Positions 3,373 to 12,720 of a stretch of DNA of 40,262 nucleotides are shown piece by piece. The stretch comes from a virus. A model generated the notes under the pieces. The model saw nothing but the letters and a program-made list of their open reading frames with translations. It had not been told where the DNA came from and did not search any database. Position numbers and translations under genes: made by a program. Position 1 is the first letter of the stretch, and each line of letters opens with the position of its first letter. The stretch spans positions 1 through 40,262 of IMG/VR virus record IMGVR_UViG_3300047095_000306; one strand, 5' to 3'.

Positions 3373-3570
3373 ATGGATACTAAAACCGAAGTGAAGAAGC
3401 CAGGCCGACCGCCACTCCCTACCGACAAGGTGCTGTCAAGGTGCATTGAATTCCGGTGTACCGAAGCTCAGTACGCGGCTTACTTGAAGATCGGAGCGCA
3501 GGAGGCGTTGAGGAAGATTCTGGATAACGCTAACGTAACCGGCCTTGCGCCGGAAGGAGATAAATCATGA
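3373..3570 (+). CDS. Small basic protein with AT-hook-like start (65 aa)
   Basis: Residues 8-15 (KKPGRPPL) resemble an AT-hook or DNA minor-groove contact. The rest (IEFRCTEAQYAAYLKIG) could be a short helical or ribbon-helix-helix dimerisation unit. It is read from the promoter at 3338-3367 with no leader. A DNA-binding regulator is my guess; no family is certain. Its stop overlaps the next ATG (ATGA). Confidence 0.65.
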   Translation: MDTKTEVKKPGRPPLPTDKVLSRCIEFRCTEAQYAAYLKIGAQEALRKILDNANVTGLAPEGDKS

Positions 3571-3887
3571 GCACAGCGCCTATTGCGCAAGGTCCGGTTG
3601 ACGTAAATGTTAGAACTCAGGTTCCAATGCTTCCGTACAGAGAGGGGTCTGGCGGTGCAGCTTTTTGCTGCTCTCGATGCGGAATGATTTTCCGTGTTTT
3701 CGAGAAGCCGACGAGCAATATTTGTGTTCAATGCTCCACGGCGCTTAGAAAACACCCTGCATACGAAGAAGGATGGTTTGCGGCTCTTGAATTTATGGAA
3801 CAGTGGTTCCTTGGTGCAAAGTCAAAAAGCGGAAAAGGCGCGGCCATGAATTGCAAACGAGTACGGCTAGCGCGGATCGGGTTGTAA
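3567..3887 (+). CDS. Zinc-ribbon protein (106 aa)
   Basis: CSRCG and CVQCS, about 18 residues apart, make a C4 zinc ribbon at residues about 35-56, followed by a helical tail with a basic end. The Shine-Dalgarno GGAAGGAGA precedes the ATG at normal spacing. It sits in a compact run of small early genes. Function unknown. Confidence 0.65.
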   Translation: MSTAPIAQGPVDVNVRTQVPMLPYREGSGGAAFCCSRCGMIFRVFEKPTSNICVQCSTALRKHPAYEEGWFAALEFMEQWFLGAKSKSGKGAAMNCKRVRLARIGL

Positions 3888-3893
3888 ATCGTG

Positions 3894-4088
3894 ATGAAGT
3901 CGACCAAAGAGTTCAATGCTGCGTACCGATCTGAGCATGAGTTTTTGCGAGGTTTCCGCGCTGGGGTCATTGGGAATAGATACCTCGGAGGGTACGACAA
4001 CCCAAAATACAAGCAAGGGTTTGACGAAGGCAGAGTGATTTTTGTGAAACTCGTAGAGTCGGCGCAAAAGAGTTCTAACGCAAAGTAG
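3894..4088 (+). CDS. Hypothetical protein (64 aa)
   Basis: A short charged protein of unknown family containing GFRAGVIGNRYLGGYDN. A GTG three bases upstream is an equally possible start. The 3' end reads TCTAACGCAAAGTAG, which looks like the R'' end of an attC site (compare the ends of the genes at 5921 and 6741), but I could not find a matching R' core. Confidence 0.5.
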   Translation: MKSTKEFNAAYRSEHEFLRGFRAGVIGNRYLGGYDNPKYKQGFDEGRVIFVKLVESAQKSSNAK

Positions 4089-4142
4089 ACACCCTAAAAA
4101 CCCATGCTTTGCACCTAGTAGGTGGATAAACAGGAGAATGAG

Positions 4143-4718
4143 ATGACCAAAGACGAAGAAGCCCTTGCGCTGAAGCTCATCGAAGATTTCTTTGACGAAC
4201 ATACAGACTTAGATCATGTTGTCGCGTATGCCGCCGCTGTCCTCGACGCGATTCGGGCGCAGCAAGAGCCGGTGGCGTGGCGAGTTGAGTCTGAGATTCC
4301 TATGGAAACTGGGTACGACGTAGTGTTTGATTATGCGGAGTTTCCAATGGTGGGTGCTACTGCTTTGTTCACCACGCCTCCCGTTGCCGCGATACCTGAC
4401 GGGTGGATTAGCGTTACAGAACATTTGCCGGAAAGTGGTAAGCCTGTACTGGCACAAGTGGGGAGGCTGGTTATTCGTGCAGCCTATGCTGCCAAGTTCA
4501 CACTAGACGAGGAAAATTGGGGGTGGTGGAACGACGGTGACGGTGCTGATTACAACGAAGCTAATGACACAACATATTGGCCGGAGGGCTGGTACGAATG
4601 GAATCAACACGAGGAAATTCATTGGTCGGTCACTGATGTAACGCATTGGATGCCGCTGCCAGAGGCACCTAACGCCAAGGTAAGCGGCAGGCCGCACCAC
4701 GAAACTGAAAAGGAGTGA
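4143..4718 (+). CDS. DUF551-type protein (191 aa)
   Basis: The central and C-terminal parts carry the DUF551 pattern: WISVTEHLPESGKPVL at about 92-107, ending in DVTHWMPLPEAP at about 167-178. DUF551 proteins are common in phages and of unknown function. The N-terminal 50 residues are helical and acidic. The ATG at 4143 follows AGGAG at 8 nt and was preferred over a GTG at 4122. The coding end runs into a probable attC site (4667-4789), so this gene may itself be the first cassette or the junction with the phage backbone. Confidence 0.7.
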   Translation: MTKDEEALALKLIEDFFDEHTDLDHVVAYAAAVLDAIRAQQEPVAWRVESEIPMETGYDVVFDYAEFPMVGATALFTTPPVAAIPDGWISVTEHLPESGKPVLAQVGRLVIRAAYAAKFTLDEENWGWWNDGDGADYNEANDTTYWPEGWYEWNQHEEIHWSVTDVTHWMPLPEAPNAKVSGRPHHETEKE

Positions 4719-4789
4719 TGAAGGTGGAGCAACTACAAACCGAAAACAGCTCCGCTGGCGGCCTGTCCGACTTGACCGACGTGTTAGAT
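4667..4789 (+). repeat. Probable integron attC site (long form)
   Basis: The R'' core ACCTAAC (4667-4673) and R' core GTTAGAT (4783-4789) fit RYYYAAC and GTTRRRY. Inside, CAAG...CGGCAGGCCGC (4676-4695) pairs with GCGGCCTGTCCGACTTG (4758-4774) with a few extrahelical bases. At 123 bp it is within the usual attC size range. It ends 21 bases before the methyltransferase ATG chosen at 4811, and it contains the stop of the DUF551 gene. Confidence 0.55.
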
Positions 4790-4810
4790 GACGGCGGCAA
4801 GTGCCACACC

Positions 4811-5233
4811 ATGCGGGTGATGAGCAGCAGCGAGGACATGACCTGGGCAACCCCGCAGGAGTGGTTTGACTACCTGAACCTCGAATTCGGCTTCACGCTC
4901 GACCCGTGCTGCTGGCCGGATACCGCGAAGTGCAAGCGGTACTACACCCCAGAAACGGACGGACTTGCTCAAAGCTGGACAGATGAGCGGGTGTTTATGA
5001 ACCCACCCTATGGCCGAGAAATAGGCAAATGGATGAAGAAAGCCTATGAGGAAGCCAGAGACAGCGGCGCGCTTGTGGTTTGTTTTGTTACGGCGCGAGT
5101 GGATACGAACTGGTGGCACAGCTACGCGGCAAAGGCGACCGAAGTGCGTTTCCCGAAGGGACGAGTTAAGAACCCGACTGGGATTGCGTGGCCGTTCCCG
5201 GTTGCGGTGGTCGTGTTCAGGCCACGAGGATGA
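4811..5233 (+). CDS. Phage N6-adenine DNA methyltransferase (Dam/DNMT type)
   Basis: This is the compact phage Dam family. Early in the protein WATPQEWFDYLN is the usual opening block, LDPCC is followed by TAKC and YYTPETDGL, and NPPYG is the catalytic DPPY-type motif that flips and methylates adenine. The frame is open from a GTG at 4715 (172 aa), but the bases before 4790 look like an attC site, so I chose the ATG at 4811 (140 aa); an ATG at 4820 is also possible. It probably protects phage DNA or regulates by GATC-type methylation. It appears to lie within a gene cassette. Confidence 0.8.
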   Translation: MRVMSSSEDMTWATPQEWFDYLNLEFGFTLDPCCWPDTAKCKRYYTPETDGLAQSWTDERVFMNPPYGREIGKWMKKAYEEARDSGALVVCFVTARVDTNWWHSYAAKATEVRFPKGRVKNPTGIAWPFPVAVVVFRPRG

Positions 5234-5293
5234 AGTCATCTAACGTGAAAGTAACAGGCGCACCGGCCCACGGTGATTAAAGGAGAGAAGAAC

Positions 5294-5560
5294 GTGAAAC
5301 GACTGACACGCTATGCAGGACTGATTGCCGGTGCGTCCTTGTTGACTGTCGGGTTGGGGGGCTGTACTGGCTCCGGCATAACACAGGCCGACCAGTGCAT
5401 GAGGCGCGAGATTTTTATGCAGTGCATGGCGGCGCTCCCTGCTGGCCCGAAAGCGACGATGTACAACGATTGGGACGAAGTAGTGAGCCAGTGCGAAAGC
5501 GCGGCGTACTACCAGAGCCTGCGCGCTAAAAGCCAAATAAAGCCGGAGTGCAGAACTTGA
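5294..5560 (+). CDS. Small lipoprotein (88 aa)
   Basis: A basic start (KRLTRY), a hydrophobic stretch and the lipobox LGGC with Cys24 give a clear type II signal peptide. The mature part is about 65 residues with four further cysteines, which suggests disulfides in the periplasm. The GTG at 5294 follows AAAGGAGAG at the right distance and was preferred over a GTG at 5273. It directly precedes an attC site. Superinfection exclusion or envelope modification would fit a phage lipoprotein, but no specific function can be read. Confidence 0.7.
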   Translation: MKRLTRYAGLIAGASLLTVGLGGCTGSGITQADQCMRREIFMQCMAALPAGPKATMYNDWDEVVSQCESAAYYQSLRAKSQIKPECRT

Positions 5561-5561
5561 C

Positions 5562-5628
5562 CCCCAACGCATGAGGTGAGGAGCCTGAGCGCTCTTTGCG
5601 AAGGTCGCCTCGACCGACTGGTTAGGGC
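5562..5628 (+). repeat. Integron attC site A
   Basis: The R'' core CCCCAAC (5562-5568) and the R' core GTTAGGG (5621-5627, followed by C) are complementary except at one base. L'' GAGGTGA (5573-5579) pairs with L' TCGCCTC (5605-5611). The site starts two bases after the lipoprotein stop, the usual attC position. Predicted recombination point is between G5621 and T5622. Confidence 0.75.
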
Positions 5629-5651
5629 GCGGGTTGATAAGGAGAGAGAAG

Positions 5652-5921
5652 ATGACCGACGAACGATACAAGAAAATCATGGAAGACCTTGGTATGCCGA
5701 ACAGCCGTAGCTTGCTGGTTGCGCTGCAACAGGTGGCAAACGAAGCAGGGCAAGAATGCGCAGCAGCAGAGCGCGAGGCGTGCGGAGAGATTGCGAACAA
5801 AAAAGCCGCAGATGTGTTGGCGAAAAACAGATTCTTCGGAGACGCAACGGGCACTGCGCGTTTTGCCGCCGAAATGCTAGAGGATGTTGGGTTAAAAATT
5901 CGCATGCGCTCTAACGCATAG
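5652..5921 (+). CDS. Cassette gene 1: hypothetical protein (89 aa)
   Basis: A helical, alanine- and glutamate-rich protein; residues about 20-60 could form an amphipathic coil. No family is recognised. The ATG follows GGAGAGAGAAG. Its last codons and stop (TAG at 5919) lie inside attC site B, so gene plus site form one mobile cassette unit of about 369 bp (5622-5990). Confidence 0.65.
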   Translation: MTDERYKKIMEDLGMPNSRSLLVALQQVANEAGQECAAAEREACGEIANKKAADVLAKNRFFGDATGTARFAAEMLEDVGLKIRMRSNA

Positions 5922-5997
5922 CTCAGGCGAGCGGCGCGCGAACAGAAACGAAACAAGAAGCAGCTTTTACGCGTCGCTTGGAGCGACGGGTTAGGGC
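5909..5997 (+). repeat. Integron attC site B
   Basis: R'' CTCTAAC (5909-5915) and R' GTTAGGG (5990-5996). Inner arms GCTCAGGCGAGCG (from 5921) and CGTCGCTTGGAGCG (5972-5985) pair with small bulges, as expected for a folded single-strand attC. The 89-bp size is typical. Confidence 0.75.
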
Positions 5998-6013
5998 CAA
6001 TACGGAGAAAGAT

Positions 6014-6388
6014 ATGAGTGCAAATTACATGCTCGACGGGCATAAGGCAGTGAAATGTAATGACCTGATGAAGTGGGCAAAATGGTTCGGAAACGCTAAC
6101 AGGCTGGTTGCATCCGAGACAATTGGTAAGTCGCGTGTAAGCACCGTGTTTCTCGGACTCGACCACAGATTTGGTGAAGGCAAACCACTGTTGTTTGAAA
6201 CGATGGTATTCGGTGGAGATGGCGACGGTGCGCAAGATCGCTGCACCACTTGGGAAGAAGCCGAAGCTATGCACGCGAGGATGGTTGATCGAGTGAAGAA
6301 CGAAGCCCCTAACGCCGCTTTGAGGGGCGACAGCGGCCTTATCGCTGGCGTCCCGCTCGAAAGCACAGTTATGCAACAGGAGGGTTGA
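6014..6388 (+). CDS. Cassette gene 2: conserved hypothetical protein (124 aa)
   Basis: It belongs to a small family seen in phages and bacteria with the pattern YMLDGH...WFGNANR..., VSTVFLGLDHRFGEGKP, LFETMVFGG and TWEEAEAMHARMV; function unknown. The ATG follows GGAGAAA. The reading frame passes right through attC site C and stops at 6388, 18 nt beyond the recombination point, so the last few residues are encoded by the neighbouring cassette and would change if cassettes were shuffled. Confidence 0.75.
   Translation: MSANYMLDGHKAVKCNDLMKWAKWFGNANRLVASETIGKSRVSTVFLGLDHRFGEGKPLLFETMVFGGDGDGAQDRCTTWEEAEAMHARMVDRVKNEAPNAALRGDSGLIAGVPLESTVMQQEG
6307..6374 (+). repeat. Integron attC site C
   Basis: R'' CCCTAAC (6307-6313) and R' GTTATGC (6368-6374). 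The L'' arm GCTTTGAGGGGCGAC (6317-6331) and the L' arm GTCCCGCTCGAAAGC (6350-6364) are almost perfectly complementary, differing by small bulges. This is one of the two clearest sites in the array. Confidence 0.85.
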
Positions 6389-6390
6389 AC

Positions 6391-6741
6391 ATGCAGCAGA
6401 TGTTTGTTTGGACGTTTGGCGATGTAGTTGGAGTTGTGGCGGCGGTTGTAGTTGCGGCGACGTTCGCCACCATTGCACTGAAACAGTGGGTTACCTCTGC
6501 GATTTGCAAGCACGACGGAGCAGTGGATGAGACGATGGCTTGCGATGCGATCTGCCGGAAGTGCGGGAAGAACTTGGGCTTCATCGGCGCATGGCGAGAC
6601 GCGCACAAGAGTGCACATTGTATGTGCGACGCGTGCAAGGATGGGGATTTGCACTACAGCGACTGCGCCGTGCATAACGCGCCAGCAATACCGAGAGGAT
6701 CGTGCGACTGCGGCGCAGTGCATAACGCAGAGCTGACCTGA
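6391..6741 (+). CDS. Cassette gene 3: membrane-anchored zinc-binding protein (116 aa)
   Basis: Residues about 9-32 form one hydrophobic membrane segment. Behind it comes a small zinc-binding domain (CKH, then DAICRKCGKNLGFIGAWR, then further cysteines and histidines). A near-repeat, CAVHNA / CGAVHNA, ends the protein. An AGGAGGG Shine-Dalgarno lies 8 nt before the ATG, between the R' core of site C and the gene. The stop falls inside attC site D. Likely an inner-membrane protein; role unknown. Confidence 0.65.
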   Translation: MQQMFVWTFGDVVGVVAAVVVAATFATIALKQWVTSAICKHDGAVDETMACDAICRKCGKNLGFIGAWRDAHKSAHCMCDACKDGDLHYSDCAVHNAPAIPRGSCDCGAVHNAELT

Positions 6742-6785
6742 CTGCGCGGCTTTTCGCGCAGGTCAGGTCGAGCGCAGGGTTATGC
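6720..6785 (+). repeat. Integron attC site D
   Basis: The cores are perfect complements: R'' GCATAAC (6720-6726) and R' GTTATGC (6779-6785). The stem GACCTGACTGCGCG (6735-6748) pairs with CGCGCAGGTCAGGTC (6755-6769) with one extra G, an extrahelical base typical of attC, around a six-base loop. This 66-bp site is the best in the window. Confidence 0.9.
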
Positions 6786-6815
6786 GGCGCGACTACAACG
6801 AAGAAAGGAAAGAGC

Positions 6816-7103
6816 ATGAAGATTCAGGCACCGATTGAAGTAGAGATCAAGGTCAGCATCACCGATGGCGAATTGCAAGGAGTGGCGACCATTGGCCTCG
6901 GAAAAGGCAGCTACCCGACAGAAGAAAAGATACGCGAGGCGGTGGCGAAGTTTGAGCGCGAGGGCATGCCTGAAGGATTCCGGCTGATGACCAAGCGCGA
7001 ATGGTGGGACACGGTTTGCCCGCCGACTCACGAAGAGGGCGAGGACGGAAAGCGCCATCCGATGCGCTTTGCGGTGCCCGGTGGCGATGACTACGACGCA
7101 TAA
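6816..7103 (+). CDS. Cassette gene 4: hypothetical protein (95 aa)
   Basis: The N-terminal third is a beta-rich stretch (KIQAPIEVEIKVSIT), followed by a helical segment and a charged tail. No family is recognised. GGAAAGAG precedes the ATG. Its stop TAA is part of the R'' core of the next attC-like site, as in the other cassette genes here. Confidence 0.65.
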   Translation: MKIQAPIEVEIKVSITDGELQGVATIGLGKGSYPTEEKIREAVAKFEREGMPEGFRLMTKREWWDTVCPPTHEEGEDGKRHPMRFAVPGGDDYDA

Positions 7104-7143
7104 CGCGATGTGTACCCCAGATGGTGCGTCCACTGAGTTATAA
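7098..7143 (+). repeat. Possible short attC site E
   Basis: R'' GCATAAC (7098-7104) is perfect and GTTATAA (7137-7143) is a near-match to an R' core. The inner arms GATGTGTACC and GGTGCGTC pair only with bulges. At 46 bp it is shorter than most attC sites. It could be the eroded right-hand end of the cassette array, directly before ninB. Confidence 0.4.
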
Positions 7144-7146
7144 ACC

Positions 7147-7539
7147 ATGCTGTATCGCCTAGTCCATCCTGAAGCCCGTCAGAGGGCCATAGAAGCCATT
7201 AAACAGGCTCCTGATGGGTTTATCTGTCGTATCTCTGAGCCTACTCGCTCACTAGATCAATCGGCACGATTTCACGCCCTATGCGGGGATATATCGAAGG
7301 CAGGTATCCAATGGGCAGGGAAATCGAGGACAGCGGCACAGTGGAAGGTTTTGCTAGTCTCTGGTCATGCTGTAGCTACCGGAGAAGGTGCAGAGGTAAT
7401 TCCAGGGCTTGAAGGTGAGTTTATCAATATCAGGGAATCGACTGCATTGATGTCAAAGAAACGCGGGTCGAGCCTTATCGAGTATGCGACCGCTTTTGCG
7501 GTATCTAACGGAGTGAAATTCAGTGAAAGACAAGACTAG
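7147..7539 (+). CDS. ninB: NinB-type recombination protein
   Basis: This 130-aa protein matches the NinB family (lambda Orf), a single-strand DNA-binding recombination mediator that helps load strand-exchange proteins. Recognisable parts are YRLVHPEARQRA at the start, RSLDQSARFHALCGDIS (about 33-50), QWKVLLVSGHA and the end block RGSSLIEYATAF..NGVKFSER. It is followed by NinG, the usual pairing in lambda-like nin regions, and works with the ERF and SSB-like genes on the opposite strand. There is no obvious Shine-Dalgarno. Confidence 0.85.
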   Translation: MLYRLVHPEARQRAIEAIKQAPDGFICRISEPTRSLDQSARFHALCGDISKAGIQWAGKSRTAAQWKVLLVSGHAVATGEGAEVIPGLEGEFINIRESTALMSKKRGSSLIEYATAFAVSNGVKFSERQD

Positions 7540-7702
7540 AGCAATGGTGGATGAGCTTGGACACCTTTGGGTCAAGGACGCCCTAGAACACGCGCTCAAG
7601 ATGAAATACGCCCTGATGCTCATCAAGCAAAAGGCAGACGAAGGCATTGTGTCTGGAACCGAGATCATGGAAATCTGCGACCGTGCCATATCAAACCGCT
7701 GA
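7523..7702 (+). CDS. Hypothetical protein between ninB and ninG (59 aa)
   Basis: A helical, charged 59-aa product from a GTG overlapping the end of ninB by 17 bases; an ATG at 7544 would give 52 aa. It ends 7 bases before the ninG ATG. Its conserved-looking place in the operon supports it, but no domain is recognised. Confidence 0.5.
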   Translation: MKDKTRAMVDELGHLWVKDALEHALKMKYALMLIKQKADEGIVSGTEIMEICDRAISNR

Positions 7703-7709
7703 TGCACTT

Positions 7710-8348
7710 ATGGGAATATTTGGATTGAAGCGAGTCAAGCCTCGCAAGTGCCGGTATTGCAAGCAGCCGTTTAAGCAAGAGCGCCCATTGCAAACGATTT
7801 GCGGGTGGGAATGTGCTGCCAAGATGGTCGATAAGATCAAGCAGCAGGAACGGGCAAAGGCGGAAAAGATTGAACGGGCTGATATACGGGCTAGGAAACT
7901 GGAGTTAAAGCCGCTGCAATACTGGTTAAAACGGGCTGAGAAGGCTTTTAACGCATGGGTGCTAGTGAGGGATAGGGAACAGGGTTGTATCTCTTGTGGG
8001 CGGTTTGAGGCCCAAGCTTTTCATGCGGGGCATCATGTATCCGTTGGGGCATCCAGTGCTTTGCGGTTTGATCCGGCTAACGTCCATAAGCAGTGCAATC
8101 AATGCAACATCCATCTAGCGGGGAATCAGGAGCAATACGCTACCAGGCTACCGGCAAGGATAGGACAGGACGAAGTCGACCGCCTCAAGAATGCACCACG
8201 GTCGCGGAAATGGACAAGGGAAGAGTTACAGGCTATTGAGTCCGAGTACAAAGCCAAACTAAAGGAGTTCCAGAATGGAAAAGGCCGAAAGAAGGCAAGC
8301 AAGACTCGATATAAACAGGCTTTACAGCGTCGCAGACAGGCTCGATAA
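7710..8348 (+). CDS. ninG: NinG/Rap-type recombination endonuclease
   Basis: The 212-aa protein matches lambda NinG (Rap), which cuts branched recombination intermediates. The N-terminal CRYCKQPF...CGWECA is a zinc-binding segment. A central HNH-like block runs CISCGR, AGHHVSVGASSALRFDP, NVHKQCNQCNIHLAGN. The C-terminus is basic. The ATG at 7710 was chosen over a TTG at 7647, which would overlap the upstream small gene. Confidence 0.88.
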   Translation: MGIFGLKRVKPRKCRYCKQPFKQERPLQTICGWECAAKMVDKIKQQERAKAEKIERADIRARKLELKPLQYWLKRAEKAFNAWVLVRDREQGCISCGRFEAQAFHAGHHVSVGASSALRFDPANVHKQCNQCNIHLAGNQEQYATRLPARIGQDEVDRLKNAPRSRKWTREELQAIESEYKAKLKEFQNGKGRKKASKTRYKQALQRRRQAR

Positions 8349-8499
8349 ACTTACGGATGCCTATACTCTAGCTTTGGATGATTTAAGGATTGCAAGGCAG
8401 GGATTAAAGACCATAGCGACATGGGCGCGATGCGAGATTGATCCTGAAAAGATTCACTACAGGGCTATGGATACGCTTTCTATGATGTATCACAAGTAA
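8275..8499 (+). CDS. Hypothetical helical protein (74 aa)
   Basis: Starts inside the 3' end of ninG in another frame, with AAAGGAG at good distance from the ATG. The product is all-helical and charged (about residues 10-50 may be a coiled coil). It is the last gene of the left arm before the hairpin region. No function can be assigned. Confidence 0.55.
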   Translation: MEKAERRQARLDINRLYSVADRLDKLTDAYTLALDDLRIARQGLKTIATWARCEIDPEKIHYRAMDTLSMMYHK

Positions 8500-8504
8500 A
8501 AAAG

Positions 8505-8560
8505 AAGCCCCTGCAAGTATCTGAGGGGCTTGAAGCCGGGAGCAAGCTCACCGGCAGGGG
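8505..8560. other. Cluster of competing hairpins between left arm and late region
   Basis: AAGCCCCT (8505-8512) pairs with AGGGGCTT (8524-8531). The overlapping segment CCCCTGC (8508-8514) can instead pair with GCAGGGG (8554-8560), enclosing a GCCGG/CCGGC hairpin (8535-8555). The two folds exclude each other. On the leftward strand the first hairpin is followed by a T-run, so it could terminate leftward transcripts; on the rightward strand no T-run follows. Confidence 0.5.
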
Positions 8561-8588
8561 AGAATCTAAAGGGTAGCACCAAACCGGA

Positions 8589-8616
8589 TTGACAACAAGC
8601 CCAAAACAGGCATAAT
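8589..8616 (+). promoter_or_regulatory. Sigma70-type promoter for the late region
   Basis: A perfect TTGACA (8589-8594) is followed after 16 bases by CATAAT (8611-8616). It lies in the only gene-free gap between the ninG region and the radical SAM gene and would start transcription near 8623. It probably feeds the radical SAM, terminase and structural genes. Confidence 0.65.
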
Positions 8617-8654
8617 GAAGGTTGATTTCTAACGACCAGGCCAAGAGGCAGTCA

Positions 8655-9590
8655 ATGATTACAGATCGAATCGACGGGGTTACGGGGATTCCTCCTGAAT
8701 ACCGTAAAGCATCTATCCCTGCGCCGAAGTCGGTAAAGATTGAGCTGACTAGCAAATGCCCATACCGTTGTTCGTTTTGTGCCAACAAGGACATTACGGA
8801 CAAGGGAGAGATGACTTGGGAGACCTACACCGCTGTCGTGGATGAATGCCTAACCGTTGGAATCGAGGAAATAGGCGTTTTCCTGATCGGCGAGAGTTTC
8901 ATGTGTGATTGGTTGCCGGAAGCGATCAAGTACGCCAAAGACGCTGGTTGTAAGTACGTTTTCCTGACATCTAACGGCTATCTCTGCACTTCTGATCGGG
9001 TCCAAGCCTGCATGGATGCTGGCCTTGATAGCCTGAAGTTTAGTTTCAACTACTCGACCCCCGAGCAGTTGAAGGAAATTGCCAAGGTCAAGAAATCGGC
9101 CTTCGAGAAGGTAATACAGAACATCATCGCGGCAAGGGGAATCCGTGACGAAGGCAACTATCCATGCCGTCTGTACGCCTCAAGCATCAAGTTTGAGGGT
9201 GAGCAGATGGAACGCATGGCCCCTGTACTTGAACGAATTAGCCCGTACCTTGATGAAACCTATTTTCTGCCGCTTTTTAGTTTCTCGGATCAAAAGGTTG
9301 TAGAGACCGAGGGCGCACTAGGGTTCAAGCCTGTTGCTGGAAACCCTGGCAGGGCAGGGAATATGCGAGACCCGCTCCCTTGCTGGAGTGTAAGCCGGGA
9401 AATGCACATAGATCGGCACGGGAATCTTAACGCTTGCTGCTTTGGCGGCGACGATTTCATCATGGGAAACTTCAAAGACGGGATAATGAACGTCTGGAAC
9501 AACGAAAAATTCCAAAACCTGCGACTTGCCCATCTTGCAAAGGATGTATCGGGTACGCCTTGCGCCAAGTGCGCCGTAGGGGGTTATTAA
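8655..9590 (+). CDS. Radical SAM protein with SPASM-like C-terminus
   Basis: The 311-aa protein has the radical SAM cluster motif C35-x3-C39-x2-C42 (CPYRCSFC), a TIM-barrel-like body and a C-terminal set of cysteines (CWS near 250, CCFGG near 270, CAKCAVGG at the end) like SPASM/twitch auxiliary iron-sulfur sites. It probably makes a radical-based change in a small molecule, sugar or peptide. The ATG at 8655 follows AGAGGCAG. The stop overlaps the glycosyltransferase start (TAATG), so the two are coupled and may act in one pathway. It is not a QueE by its motifs. Confidence 0.85.
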   Translation: MITDRIDGVTGIPPEYRKASIPAPKSVKIELTSKCPYRCSFCANKDITDKGEMTWETYTAVVDECLTVGIEEIGVFLIGESFMCDWLPEAIKYAKDAGCKYVFLTSNGYLCTSDRVQACMDAGLDSLKFSFNYSTPEQLKEIAKVKKSAFEKVIQNIIAARGIRDEGNYPCRLYASSIKFEGEQMERMAPVLERISPYLDETYFLPLFSFSDQKVVETEGALGFKPVAGNPGRAGNMRDPLPCWSVSREMHIDRHGNLNACCFGGDDFIMGNFKDGIMNVWNNEKFQNLRLAHLAKDVSGTPCAKCAVGGY

Positions 9591-10261
9591 TGGAAATCTG
9601 GATAGGTTACGACCCCAGAGAAGCAATAGCCTTCCATACCTGCGTCAATTCGATAATCCGCCACGCATCCAAGCCGGTCACGATCCACCCTCTAGCTTTG
9701 AACAACATCCCCGGCTACGAGGAAAAGCACACGGACGGATCAAACCAGTTCATCTATTCCCGCTTCCTTGTCCCCTGGTTGATGTCTTGGAAGGGAACAG
9801 CGATATTCATGGATGGGGATATGGTCGTGACTGACGATATACACAAGATCACACAGAACATTGGCGGGAATCAACCCGTGCACGTGGTAAAACACGACTA
9901 CACCCCTAAAGACACGACCAAGTACCTTGGAGCCAAACAAACCGCCTACCCCCGCAAGAACTGGTCAAGCGTGATAGTCTGGAACTGCGACCACTTTGCC
10001 AACAGGAAGCTAACGCCAGAGTTCATCCAAGAAGCTACAGGAGAATACCTACACCGATTCCAGTGGTTGAAAGACGAACAGATAGGGGAACTAGACCCCG
10101 CCTGGAACTGGCTAAGTCAAGAGTTCGGCCCGAAGCCAGACGCTAAACTGATCCACTGGACTTGCGGAACTCCCTGCTTCCATGAGTACGCTACATCAGA
10201 AATGTCTAATATATGGCACAAGGAACGGATGCTTACAAACCACTCGGATCAAGTGCTATAG
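9590..10261 (+). CDS. Glycosyltransferase, GT-A fold (GT8-like)
   Basis: The 223-aa protein starts MEIWIGYDPREAIAFHTC, a common opening of small GT8-like enzymes, and has the metal- and nucleotide-sugar-binding D-x-D motif at 75-77 (FMDGDMVV). A later IHWTCGTPC block corresponds to the second metal site region. It would move a sugar from a nucleotide donor to an unknown acceptor. Translation is coupled to the radical SAM gene. Confidence 0.8.
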   Translation: MEIWIGYDPREAIAFHTCVNSIIRHASKPVTIHPLALNNIPGYEEKHTDGSNQFIYSRFLVPWLMSWKGTAIFMDGDMVVTDDIHKITQNIGGNQPVHVVKHDYTPKDTTKYLGAKQTAYPRKNWSSVIVWNCDHFANRKLTPEFIQEATGEYLHRFQWLKDEQIGELDPAWNWLSQEFGPKPDAKLIHWTCGTPCFHEYATSEMSNIWHKERMLTNHSDQVL

Positions 10262-10310: not shown

Positions 10311-10601
10311 ATGCCTTGGGAACCGGGACAATCTGGAAACCCTGACGGTGCTAAAAAGCACAAGGTGTTCTATGCTGCTTTGAATCGGGCTATCCTTCAA
10401 GAGGATGGTCTGAGAGTCCGTAAAGCCGCTGAAAAGCTCCTAGACCTTGCCTCAGAAGGCGAGGCATGGGCAATCAAGGAACTACGGGATACGCTGGACG
10501 GGAAGCCCGGTCTTGCTATTGACTTGGGAAGCGACCCCGAGCGCCCGATGATAACCAAGCTGGTGCGAGAGATTGTCCGCGCTAACGATCAAGACCGCTG
10601 A
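10311..10601 (+). CDS. terS: Terminase small subunit
   Basis: A 96-aa protein whose start (PWEPGQSGNPDG) is the motif common to many phage TerS and DUF5681-like proteins, followed by helices (KAAEKLLDLASEGEAWAIKE) that fit the oligomerising and DNA-recognition part. TerS binds the packaging site and hands DNA to TerL. It directly precedes and overlaps TerL by 29 bases. About 50 AT-rich bases lie upstream with no clear Shine-Dalgarno. Confidence 0.75.
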   Translation: MPWEPGQSGNPDGAKKHKVFYAALNRAILQEDGLRVRKAAEKLLDLASEGEAWAIKELRDTLDGKPGLAIDLGSDPERPMITKLVREIVRANDQDR

Positions 10602-12720
10602 AGTCTTTGAACCTTTGCTGCATCCGGCCCGAGACAAAGCCGCCTATGGTGGCAGAGGTAGCGGGAAGTCAAACGTGTTTGCTGACATGCTCATTGAAGA
10701 CTCACTAGCCGAGCCTGGCGAGTCAGGGGAAGGTCTAAGGTCTGTCTGCATCCGAGAGATTCAGAAGGACTTGGCGCAATCATCCAAAGCCCTCCTAGAG
10801 TCAAAGCTTAGAAGTCTGGGTCTTGGAGAACCGGACGGGTTCAAAGTCTTTAGGGATGTGATTGAAACCCCCCAAGACGGAATCATCATCTTCAAGGGGA
10901 TGAACGACTACACCGCAGACTCGATCAAGTCCTTAGAGGGGTTTAAACGAGGTTGGTGGGAAGAAGCCCAAGGAGCTACACAGAACTCCATCAACCTGTA
11001 CAGACCTACGATGCGGGCTTCTGGGTCTCAGATGTGGTGGAGTTGGAACCCCAGACGCAAGACCGACCCTGTGGATATTATGTTTCGTGGTGAAGAAAAG
11101 CCTACCGGGGCAACGGTAGTCCATGCCAACTGGAGAGATAACCCTTGGTTCACCGCAGAACTGGAACAAGAGCGCCAAGACTGCCTGAGAATCCAGCCTG
11201 ACCAATACGACCATATTTGGGAAGGCGGCTACATTTCGATCATCGCCGGAGCCTATTACGCCAAGTCGCTTGCAGTAGCCAAAGGGGAAGGAAGGATTGG
11301 CAGGGTTGCTGCTGATCCCCTGATGACGCTCCGGGCTTTCGTGGATATTGGCGGGACAGGGGCGAGAGCGGACGCCTTCTCAATGTGGATCGGTCAGTTC
11401 GTTGGCCGTGAGATTCGAGTATTGGACTATTACGAGGCCATCGGACAACCTTTATCGGCTCACCTTAACTGGATGCGGGACAAAGGCTATACGTCGGATC
11501 GGTGCCAGTTCTGGCTACCCCATGACGGAGCGAGTAACGATAAGGTCTATGATGTGTCCTATGAGTCTGCTTTGATGGCCGCAGGGTACAAGGTCACAGT
11601 GGTCAAGAACCAAGGCAAGGGCGCGGCTAAAGCGAGAATAGAGGCAGGAAGAAGGCTATTCCCTCAGATGTGGTTCGACAACAAGACTCAACCTGGACTA
11701 GATGCTCTGGGCTGGTATCACGAAAAGAAGGATGAAGTCAGGGGAATTGGATTAGGACCGGAGCATGATTGGGCTTGCTTGGTTGGCAGCACGAAAGTCT
11801 TGACGCGTTACGGAATACATCAGATAATGGAGCTTCCTATTACTGGTGAGGTAATGACACCATGCGGCTGGAAGCGATACATAAATCCGAGGATCACTCG
11901 GCGGAATGCCCGACTTGTCGAGGTGCAATTCACAGACGGCCATACGGTGAAATGTACGGCGGATCATTTATTCTTGACGGCAAGCGGGTGGAAATTCGCG
12001 GGGTCGTTGCGGAAGGGTTCATTGACCCGATCTACCTTGACGCAGCAACACAGTATTTTGACGGCGGTTTATATCGCCTGTGGCCTAGTGACAGGTATTT
12101 CAGTAGGGGCGGTAGGAAGTTGCATAGAGATGTTTGGATTGGAGCGTTCGGGCCTATTCCGAAAGGCTGCCACATACATCACAAAGACAGCAACCCAGCT
12201 AACAACTCATTGGAAAACCTTGAGTGCATGGATGCAAGCGAGCATCTTCGGCATACATGGGCAACTGGCTCTAAGTCAAAATACGCGCCAGGGCAGCATT
12301 TCAGCGATACAGCAAGGCTTAAGGCAGCAGAGTGGCACGCATCTGAGGCCGGAAGGTTATGGCATCGCAGGCACGCAGAACGAAGCAAGTCATGGACAAA
12401 ATGGAAGCGGGAACCAAAGCCATGCCCTGAGTGCGGAAAAACGTTCGATGCTCTTGTTAGAAAGAGCGGGAACGCGCAGATTTATTGCGGCGAACCCTGC
12501 AAAGTGGCTGCGTATAGAAGGCGTCAAAAGGACGAACGAGCAGCAAGACGTATGGTGCTTAACGGTTCCTGATGTGCATTGCTTCTCATTGGCTAATGGG
12601 GCGGTCGTGCATAACTCGCATGGCGCGGATAGTTTCGGCTTGCTGTGTGTAGCTTACGAATTGCCCGACAAGAGCAAGGAAAAACCTATCCAATACCCCA
12701 AAAATAGTGGTATCGTATGA
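10573..12720 (+). CDS. terL: Terminase large subunit interrupted by an intein
   Basis: The precursor is 715 aa; removing the intein (residues 402-681) leaves 435 aa, normal for TerL. The ATPase part has Walker A GGRGSGKS (26-33) and a WWEEAQ Walker B-like block. The nuclease part starts at FVDIGG and ends with HDWA|SHGADSF, the conserved third metal-site motif, and the intein sits exactly at the bar. Splicing is therefore needed for a working packaging motor. The start is a TTG inside terS with a weak GAGAG upstream; no better start lies before the Walker A. Motor, DNA cutting and capsid filling are the expected roles. Confidence 0.92.
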   Translation: MSALTIKTAEVFEPLLHPARDKAAYGGRGSGKSNVFADMLIEDSLAEPGESGEGLRSVCIREIQKDLAQSSKALLESKLRSLGLGEPDGFKVFRDVIETPQDGIIIFKGMNDYTADSIKSLEGFKRGWWEEAQGATQNSINLYRPTMRASGSQMWWSWNPRRKTDPVDIMFRGEEKPTGATVVHANWRDNPWFTAELEQERQDCLRIQPDQYDHIWEGGYISIIAGAYYAKSLAVAKGEGRIGRVAADPLMTLRAFVDIGGTGARADAFSMWIGQFVGREIRVLDYYEAIGQPLSAHLNWMRDKGYTSDRCQFWLPHDGASNDKVYDVSYESALMAAGYKVTVVKNQGKGAAKARIEAGRRLFPQMWFDNKTQPGLDALGWYHEKKDEVRGIGLGPEHDWACLVGSTKVLTRYGIHQIMELPITGEVMTPCGWKRYINPRITRRNARLVEVQFTDGHTVKCTADHLFLTASGWKFAGSLRKGSLTRSTLTQQHSILTAVYIACGLVTGISVGAVGSCIEMFGLERSGLFRKAATYITKTATQLTTHWKTLSAWMQASIFGIHGQLALSQNTRQGSISAIQQGLRQQSGTHLRPEGYGIAGTQNEASHGQNGSGNQSHALSAEKRSMLLLERAGTRRFIAANPAKWLRIEGVKRTNEQQDVWCLTVPDVHCFSLANGAVVHNSHGADSFGLLCVAYELPDKSKEKPIQYPKNSGIV
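11776..12615 (+). other. TerL intein (280 aa) with nested out-of-frame endonuclease
   Basis: In the TerL frame the insert starts with Cys (11776) and block A (CLVGSTKV). Block B holds the T-x-x-H motif (CTADH). It ends in block F (VPDVHCFSLANGAVV) and block G (VHN) followed by Ser+1 at 12616. These are all residues of standard class 1 protein splicing. The middle, about residues 80-255 of the insert, is low-information sequence in this frame, but the same DNA encodes an HNH endonuclease in another frame (11952-12572). Confidence 0.9.
11952..12572 (+). CDS. HNH homing endonuclease nested in the intein, other frame
   Basis: Read one base out of phase with TerL, this 206-aa protein has a convincing HNH domain: RYFSRGGRKLHRDVW, FGPIPKG, HIHHKD (74-79), NPANNSLENLECM, SEHLRHTW. 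A C-terminal zinc finger follows (C158, C161, C179, C183) with a basic tail. Homing HNH enzymes cut intein-less alleles and copy the element in by repair. The frame is open from an ATG at 11862, but the segment before 11952 overlaps essential splicing blocks, so the ATG at 11952 is my choice. It stops inside block F of the intein. Confidence 0.85.
   Translation: MYGGSFILDGKRVEIRGVVAEGFIDPIYLDAATQYFDGGLYRLWPSDRYFSRGGRKLHRDVWIGAFGPIPKGCHIHHKDSNPANNSLENLECMDASEHLRHTWATGSKSKYAPGQHFSDTARLKAAEWHASEAGRLWHRRHAERSKSWTKWKREPKPCPECGKTFDALVRKSGNAQIYCGEPCKVAAYRRRQKDERAARRMVLNGS

Follow-up and report, generated by a model that had tools for sequence, protein, structure and literature searches.

In bacterial integrons an attC site and its gene lie on one strand. 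Integrase-less clusters of attC sites (CALINs) are known from the phages TJE1, PH101 and P12002L, and five of six such phage attC sites tested recombined with attI1 (Qi et al. 2023, PMC9892861). The locus described here resembles those phage CALINs as an integrase-less attC array in a phage genome, with a methyltransferase gene among its cassettes. When orientation was checked, the TJE1 attC sites were found to run with their genes, whereas the sites of the present array run against theirs; no usable orientation was obtained from P12002L or from the first 50 kb of PH101. No virus-only IntI lineage is reported in the accessible part of Qi et al. (2023, PMC9892861). In the reverse integrons of Treponema, intI is transcribed toward attI and the cassettes are canonical, a single direction being reached by flipping intI (PMC3607928, PMC7691350).

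The window, i.e. the whole stretch of DNA analysed, is an uncultivated virus record of 40,262 bp with most genes on the plus strand. It encodes a terminase large subunit, portal, major head, scaffold and virion proteins, an endolysin and an Erf-like annealing protein. The stretch 3522-7104, situated amid small genes between the replication-protein region and the nin region, is very probably a CALIN of about seven inverted phage cassettes, served by an integrase acting in trans and kept in operon direction. A nucleotide search of isolate phages found no relatives of the window, and an Rfam scan of the window at the gathering cut-off gave no match. Elsewhere in the window, the terminase large-subunit ORF (10573-12720) appears, on reading the sequence, to carry an intein-like insertion, and an HNH-type ORF (11862-12572) is nested in it in a different frame. 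Radical-SAM-like and glycosyltransferase-like genes were recognised by the same means between NinG and the packaging genes (8622-10261).

The attC array and its cassettes

Sites were sought with a structural attC grammar (RYYYAAC and GTTRRRY cores, paired L boxes and an extrahelical base), in which the arm bearing the extrahelical base was set from bacterial loci; doing so exposed the inversion. In mirrored form the grammar found five sites in the window, against 0.05 per strand in random sequence of equal dinucleotide content. For attC training, 80 bacterial integron loci were collected through an integrase search. A covariance model, R1, was built in this analysis and differs from the published IntegronFinder model; its 20 attC sites share one spacer type; bacterial integrons supplied 13 of them, viral or prophage contigs with an integrase the other 7, and the window none. 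A mixed alignment (A2) was discarded, as its two spacer types threw the pairs out of register. Over the 40 kb, R1 detected seven sites between 3522 and 6785, all on the minus strand, five of them with E<=0.0023, one with 0.0084 and a weak one with 0.068. The sole extra match was the palindrome of the 6720 site on the plus strand (E=0.39). The features of the array and its right flank are as follows.

3522-3615, minus: attC A (R1 E=0.0023; fold z -3.3; crossover 3527|3528, GGATAA|C on plus)
3567-4718, plus: content of cassette A, ORFs 3567-3887 and 3891-4088 and DUF551 gene 4122-4718 (PF04448)
4667-4789, minus: attC B, long form (R1 E=1.1e-6; crossover 4672|4673)
4715-5233, plus: Dam-type DNA N6-adenine methyltransferase gene, cassette B (PF05869, E=2.4e-26; phrog_111)
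5238-5359, minus: attC C, weak (R1 E=0.068; fold z -2.7; crossover 5243|5244)
5285-5560, plus: small lipoprotein-like gene, cassette C (phrog_10627, E=1.5e-9, scanned as 5273-5560)
5562-5627, minus: attC D (R1 E=1e-7; crossover 5567|5568)
5652-5921, plus: 89-aa gene, cassette D
5909-5996, minus: attC E (R1 E=7.7e-5; crossover 5914|5915)
6014-6388, plus: 124-aa gene, cassette E, reading through attC F
6307-6375, minus: attC F (R1 E=0.0084; crossover 6312|6313)
6391-6741, plus: 116-aa membrane-protein-like gene, cassette F (phrog_14388, E=2.7e-8)
6720-6785, minus: attC G, near-perfect (R1 E=1e-8; crossover 6725|6726)
6816-7103, plus: 95-aa gene, cassette G
7098-7104, minus: R' box closing the array before NinB, half-site GCATAA|C, without R1 match
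7147-7539, plus: NinB (PF05772, E=7.3e-39), phage backbone right of the array
7647-8348: NinG

The sites show the cores, paired L boxes and extrahelical base of attC, and both the extrahelical C in L'' and the GCG|TTRRRY end read on the minus strand. Folded in isolation, the sites at 6720, 6307, 4667, 3522 and 5238 performed well, attC G reaching a z of -7.3 on the plus strand, which is the predicted recombinogenic strand; the sites at 5562 and 5909 folded no better than shuffled sequence. Two of the seven sites are weak by R1 and two good ones fold like shuffles, which counts against the reading given above. At 7098-7104 the remainder of the site is decayed or missing. Similarity to other viral DNA was found for attC F, which has 92% identity over 76 bp with a stretch of viral locus L217. 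The start of ORF 3567 lies inside attC A; for the Dam gene, the Shine-Dalgarno sequence, the start codon and the first residues are all contained in attC B. The cassette D gene had no relatives in the searches made, and that of cassette E had no family match in Pfam or PHROGs. The motif TTCTAACGC at 4075-4081, within cassette A, may be what is left of an attC that formerly lay between the ORFs of that cassette.

An earlier note on this DNA, drawn from the letters alone, had named attC D to G, and all four proved real, with R boxes, paired L arms and one extrahelical base; the covariance-model check that it proposed yielded the seven R1 sites. The further sites that it put at "probably two" exist and number three (3522, 4667 and the weak 5238). 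Its unit lengths of 369, 378 and 411 bp had been taken from right end to right end and become 347, 398 and 413 when measured from the left R' box crossover. It was also right that the sites all face one way, on the minus strand, a direction opposite to that of the plus-strand genes.

Gene direction in viral and bacterial arrays

As all seven attC sites lie on the minus strand and the genes on the plus strand, each gene is antiparallel to the attC that precedes it. The direction of the genes was anchored by Pfam matches (PF05869 Dam, DUF551 and NinB) and, for two further cassette genes, by PHROGs. R1 is strand-specific: within the bacterial integron loci all 53 matches, 13 of which are in the model, fell on the strand that does not carry intI, which is the canonical arrangement. 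The units of the window share with the canonical cassette the R''/L''/L'/R' organisation, the extrahelical base, the G|TT crossover, one small gene per site and stops near the core site. They differ in that the gene is not on the attC strand, and in that the attC precedes the gene and can supply its start. The integron layout claimed in the earlier note therefore stands for the attC array and not for the placing of the genes, which run against the sites.

Two pattern scans of IMG/VR together with covariance-model searches gave arrays in 87 viral loci, most of them selected by the two attC patterns. The pattern scans brought up dozens of viral contigs with such arrays, contrary to the earlier opinion that an array this clean is rare. 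Outside the window, gene direction was taken from an ORF of at least 60 aa that was preceded by a Shine-Dalgarno sequence and adjoined the site; identical sites were collapsed, and isolate L228 was left out, being a parallel array beside the prophage record of an isolate genome. The viral units were antiparallel in 173 cases and parallel in 8, as against 4 and 21 in bacteria (Fisher p=2e-18). Restricting the count to records in which TerL or a portal was matched left 70 antiparallel units and 3 parallel ones; TerL was matched in 21 of 48 records tested, with one family used, the phage status of the others being the IMG/VR assignment. A Shine-Dalgarno sequence plus start codon was found inside the attC in 13 of 259 viral sites.

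One named phage genome, Virus Rctr41k (KX853513), carries at 4680-9434 an integron integrase annotated xerD. Downstream of the integrase there are attC-like sites parallel to the genes, weak by R1 (E=0.08). This locus resembles a phage-borne reverse integron with parallel cassettes, and Rctr41k was for this orientation rejected as a named member of the inverted set.

Exchange breaks and integrases

Stretches shared by different phages often end at the canonical crossover (AA|C of the R' box), on the 5' side of attC sites. In the viral set, homology running in from the left had 11 of its 121 right ends in the first 5-nt bin past the R' box, where a 405-nt unit would give about 1.5, and homology carrying on to the right had 36 of its 132 left ends within 10 nt there (about 3.3 expected). 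The window and viral locus L241 have 202 nt in common (4476-4674 region), and this homology ends a single base beyond the R' box of attC B. Gene exchange with breaks at G|TT, for which the earlier note had suggested a comparison of related phages, was thus observed both for the window and for the set. If the unit were canonical relative to the gene, common upstream genes should bring the following attC with them, and mostly they do not. The breaks at the left R' box indicate instead a mobile unit made up of an attC and then its gene, with crossover at RYYYAA|C, which is what integron chemistry predicts for sites oriented in this way.

Filled and unfilled forms of one locus were present in four records with backbones about 90% identical: L044 lacks an array, in L046 the position holds a short stretch of other sequence, and one cassette is present in L032 and two in L031. 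The ends of L031 and L032 are not letter-perfect, about ten left-side bases being different. Judged by NinB (74% of residues), L003 stands closest to the window; two cassettes separate its NinB gene from the one that follows, a position at which the window carries no cassette. The L003 attC with 76% identity to attC B over 124 bp precedes a different methyltransferase; each of the two sites encodes the first residues of its own enzyme, and both flanking genes differ. Some viral pairs, such as the window and L003 at attC B, break at the right end of a common attC, so that homologous recombination or gene replacement is needed as well. Two different cassettes of L003 (2369-2460 and 2766-2913) have about 26 bases alike just after the attC (GCCGTRCCGCCAGAACCGACTTTTAA), one copy being translated into the start of the gene. 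The cassette G gene is also present in L322, where the match of 81% nucleotide identity spans the ORF and nothing more, and in L323; no attC was detectable in either, showing that one phage gene can occur in and out of cassette form.

In agreement with the earlier note, which saw an integrase-less array, the window has several close attC sites, no integron integrase nearby and no tyrosine recombinase of any kind in a record that is possibly incomplete. No recognisable attI was found in the window. An integron integrase above the family cut-off (450-472 bits) was present in 5 of 50 attC-bearing viral records of one search, and an integrase-side search added L143, L148, L149, L150, L155 and L166, in which the adjoining attC sites were mostly antiparallel. 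One of the five, G035, encodes TerL, major head and tail genes and is plainly a phage; its order, on one strand, is gene-attC-gene-attC-gene-intI. Just upstream of intI in L305, L306, L307 and L309, and as a variant in L308, stands RYYYAAC-TYAAATTC, a candidate attI-like site of canonical geometry. Related viral records such as G035 thus contain complete integrons, with intI and an attI-like site. These resemble the Treponema reverse integrons in that integrase and cassette genes share one direction. They differ in having the attI-like site at the 5' end of intI and flipped cassette genes, so that G035 is no reverse integron; nor is the window, which has no intI.

Eight integrases located beside antiparallel arrays, five of them with the attI-like site, form one virus-only clade (support 100/97, or 99/95 with IntI1 added) that is sister to gammaproteobacterial integrases. 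Two further virus-only clades also include antiparallel members; all three are virus-only relative to a bacterial sample obtained with one query. The phage integrase of L309 is 58% identical to class 1 IntI1, above its identity to a Shewanella integrase (44%); IntI1 itself lies outside the phage clade and serves canonical cassettes. The closest sequence to IntI1 was bacterial, L122 (60.8%).

Explanations and significance

Under the preferred reading, each cassette is an attC plus the gene after it, and that gene runs against the attC and with phage transcription. The integrase would be provided in trans, either by a co-infecting or co-resident relative carrying a member of the virus-only IntI clade or by the host. 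It would fold the plus strand of the attC and cut at the left R' box (RYYYAA|C), and whole attC-gene units would be inserted or removed. The phage would retain only units whose gene reads with its operon, with translation signals just after the attC or, in a few cases, inside it. Since attC orientation would be set by attI and intI and gene direction by phage transcription, the surviving cassettes would be inverted. The idea of the earlier note that a host integrase adds and removes genes, making the phage a shuttle, retains less weight than exchange within a phage cassette pool, because a host cassette inserted here would oppose phage transcription; catalysis by an integrase from related phages is no less likely than catalysis by a host enzyme.

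It is improbable that the sites are inert or decaying relics, formerly active attC sites that now serve as spacers while the phages vary through homologous recombination. The Erf-like annealing protein, NinB and NinG, the weakness of some sites by R1, and the differing genes on both sides of the attC common to the window and L003 would all fit such a history. It leaves aside the concentration of breaks at the R' box, the strong palindromy and extrahelical bases retained at 6720, 6307 and 4667, and the complete integrons with the same inversion in related viral contigs. Capture of an ordinary CALIN with canonical cassettes from a host integron, as in TJE1, has a very slim chance. The attC sites of the window resemble betaproteobacterial attC sites in sequence, and TJE1 shows that a phage can carry a canonical CALIN; the genes are, however, antiparallel in all seven units here and in 173 of 181 decided viral units, and homology breaks on the 5' side of the attC. 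Canonical capture from a host array was rejected on this strand test. That the hairpins only resemble attC and are RNA elements, leaders controlling translation or decay, is scarcely credible. Their position 5' of genes and the translation starts within a few of them speak for it, but the R boxes, the extrahelical C, the strand-specific match to integron attC sites and the crossover breaks would be left unexplained; an RNA role could be a second function.

Beyond the window, the inverted cassettes suggest, with fair probability, that phages own a separate integron lineage, of which the window would be a CALIN member. Such a lineage would comprise virus-only integrases, their own attI and an inverted, operon-codirectional cassette pool exchanged among phages and functionally barred by orientation from host integrons. 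In the literature searched, preprints aside, neither systematic cassette inversion nor an integron lineage confined to viruses was found described, and both appear to be new.

The strand selectivity of attC is considered indispensable if cassettes are to enter in the direction of the integron promoter (PMC8946536). Widespread cassettes following the opposite rule suggest that the transcription unit housing the array, and not recombination chemistry, determines which way a gene points. Phages would gain a site-specific route for swapping accessory genes such as methyltransferases. A host cassette entering such an array would be antisense, and a phage cassette placed in a host integron would not be expressed from the integron's promoter, so that a barrier between the phage and host cassette pools is predicted.
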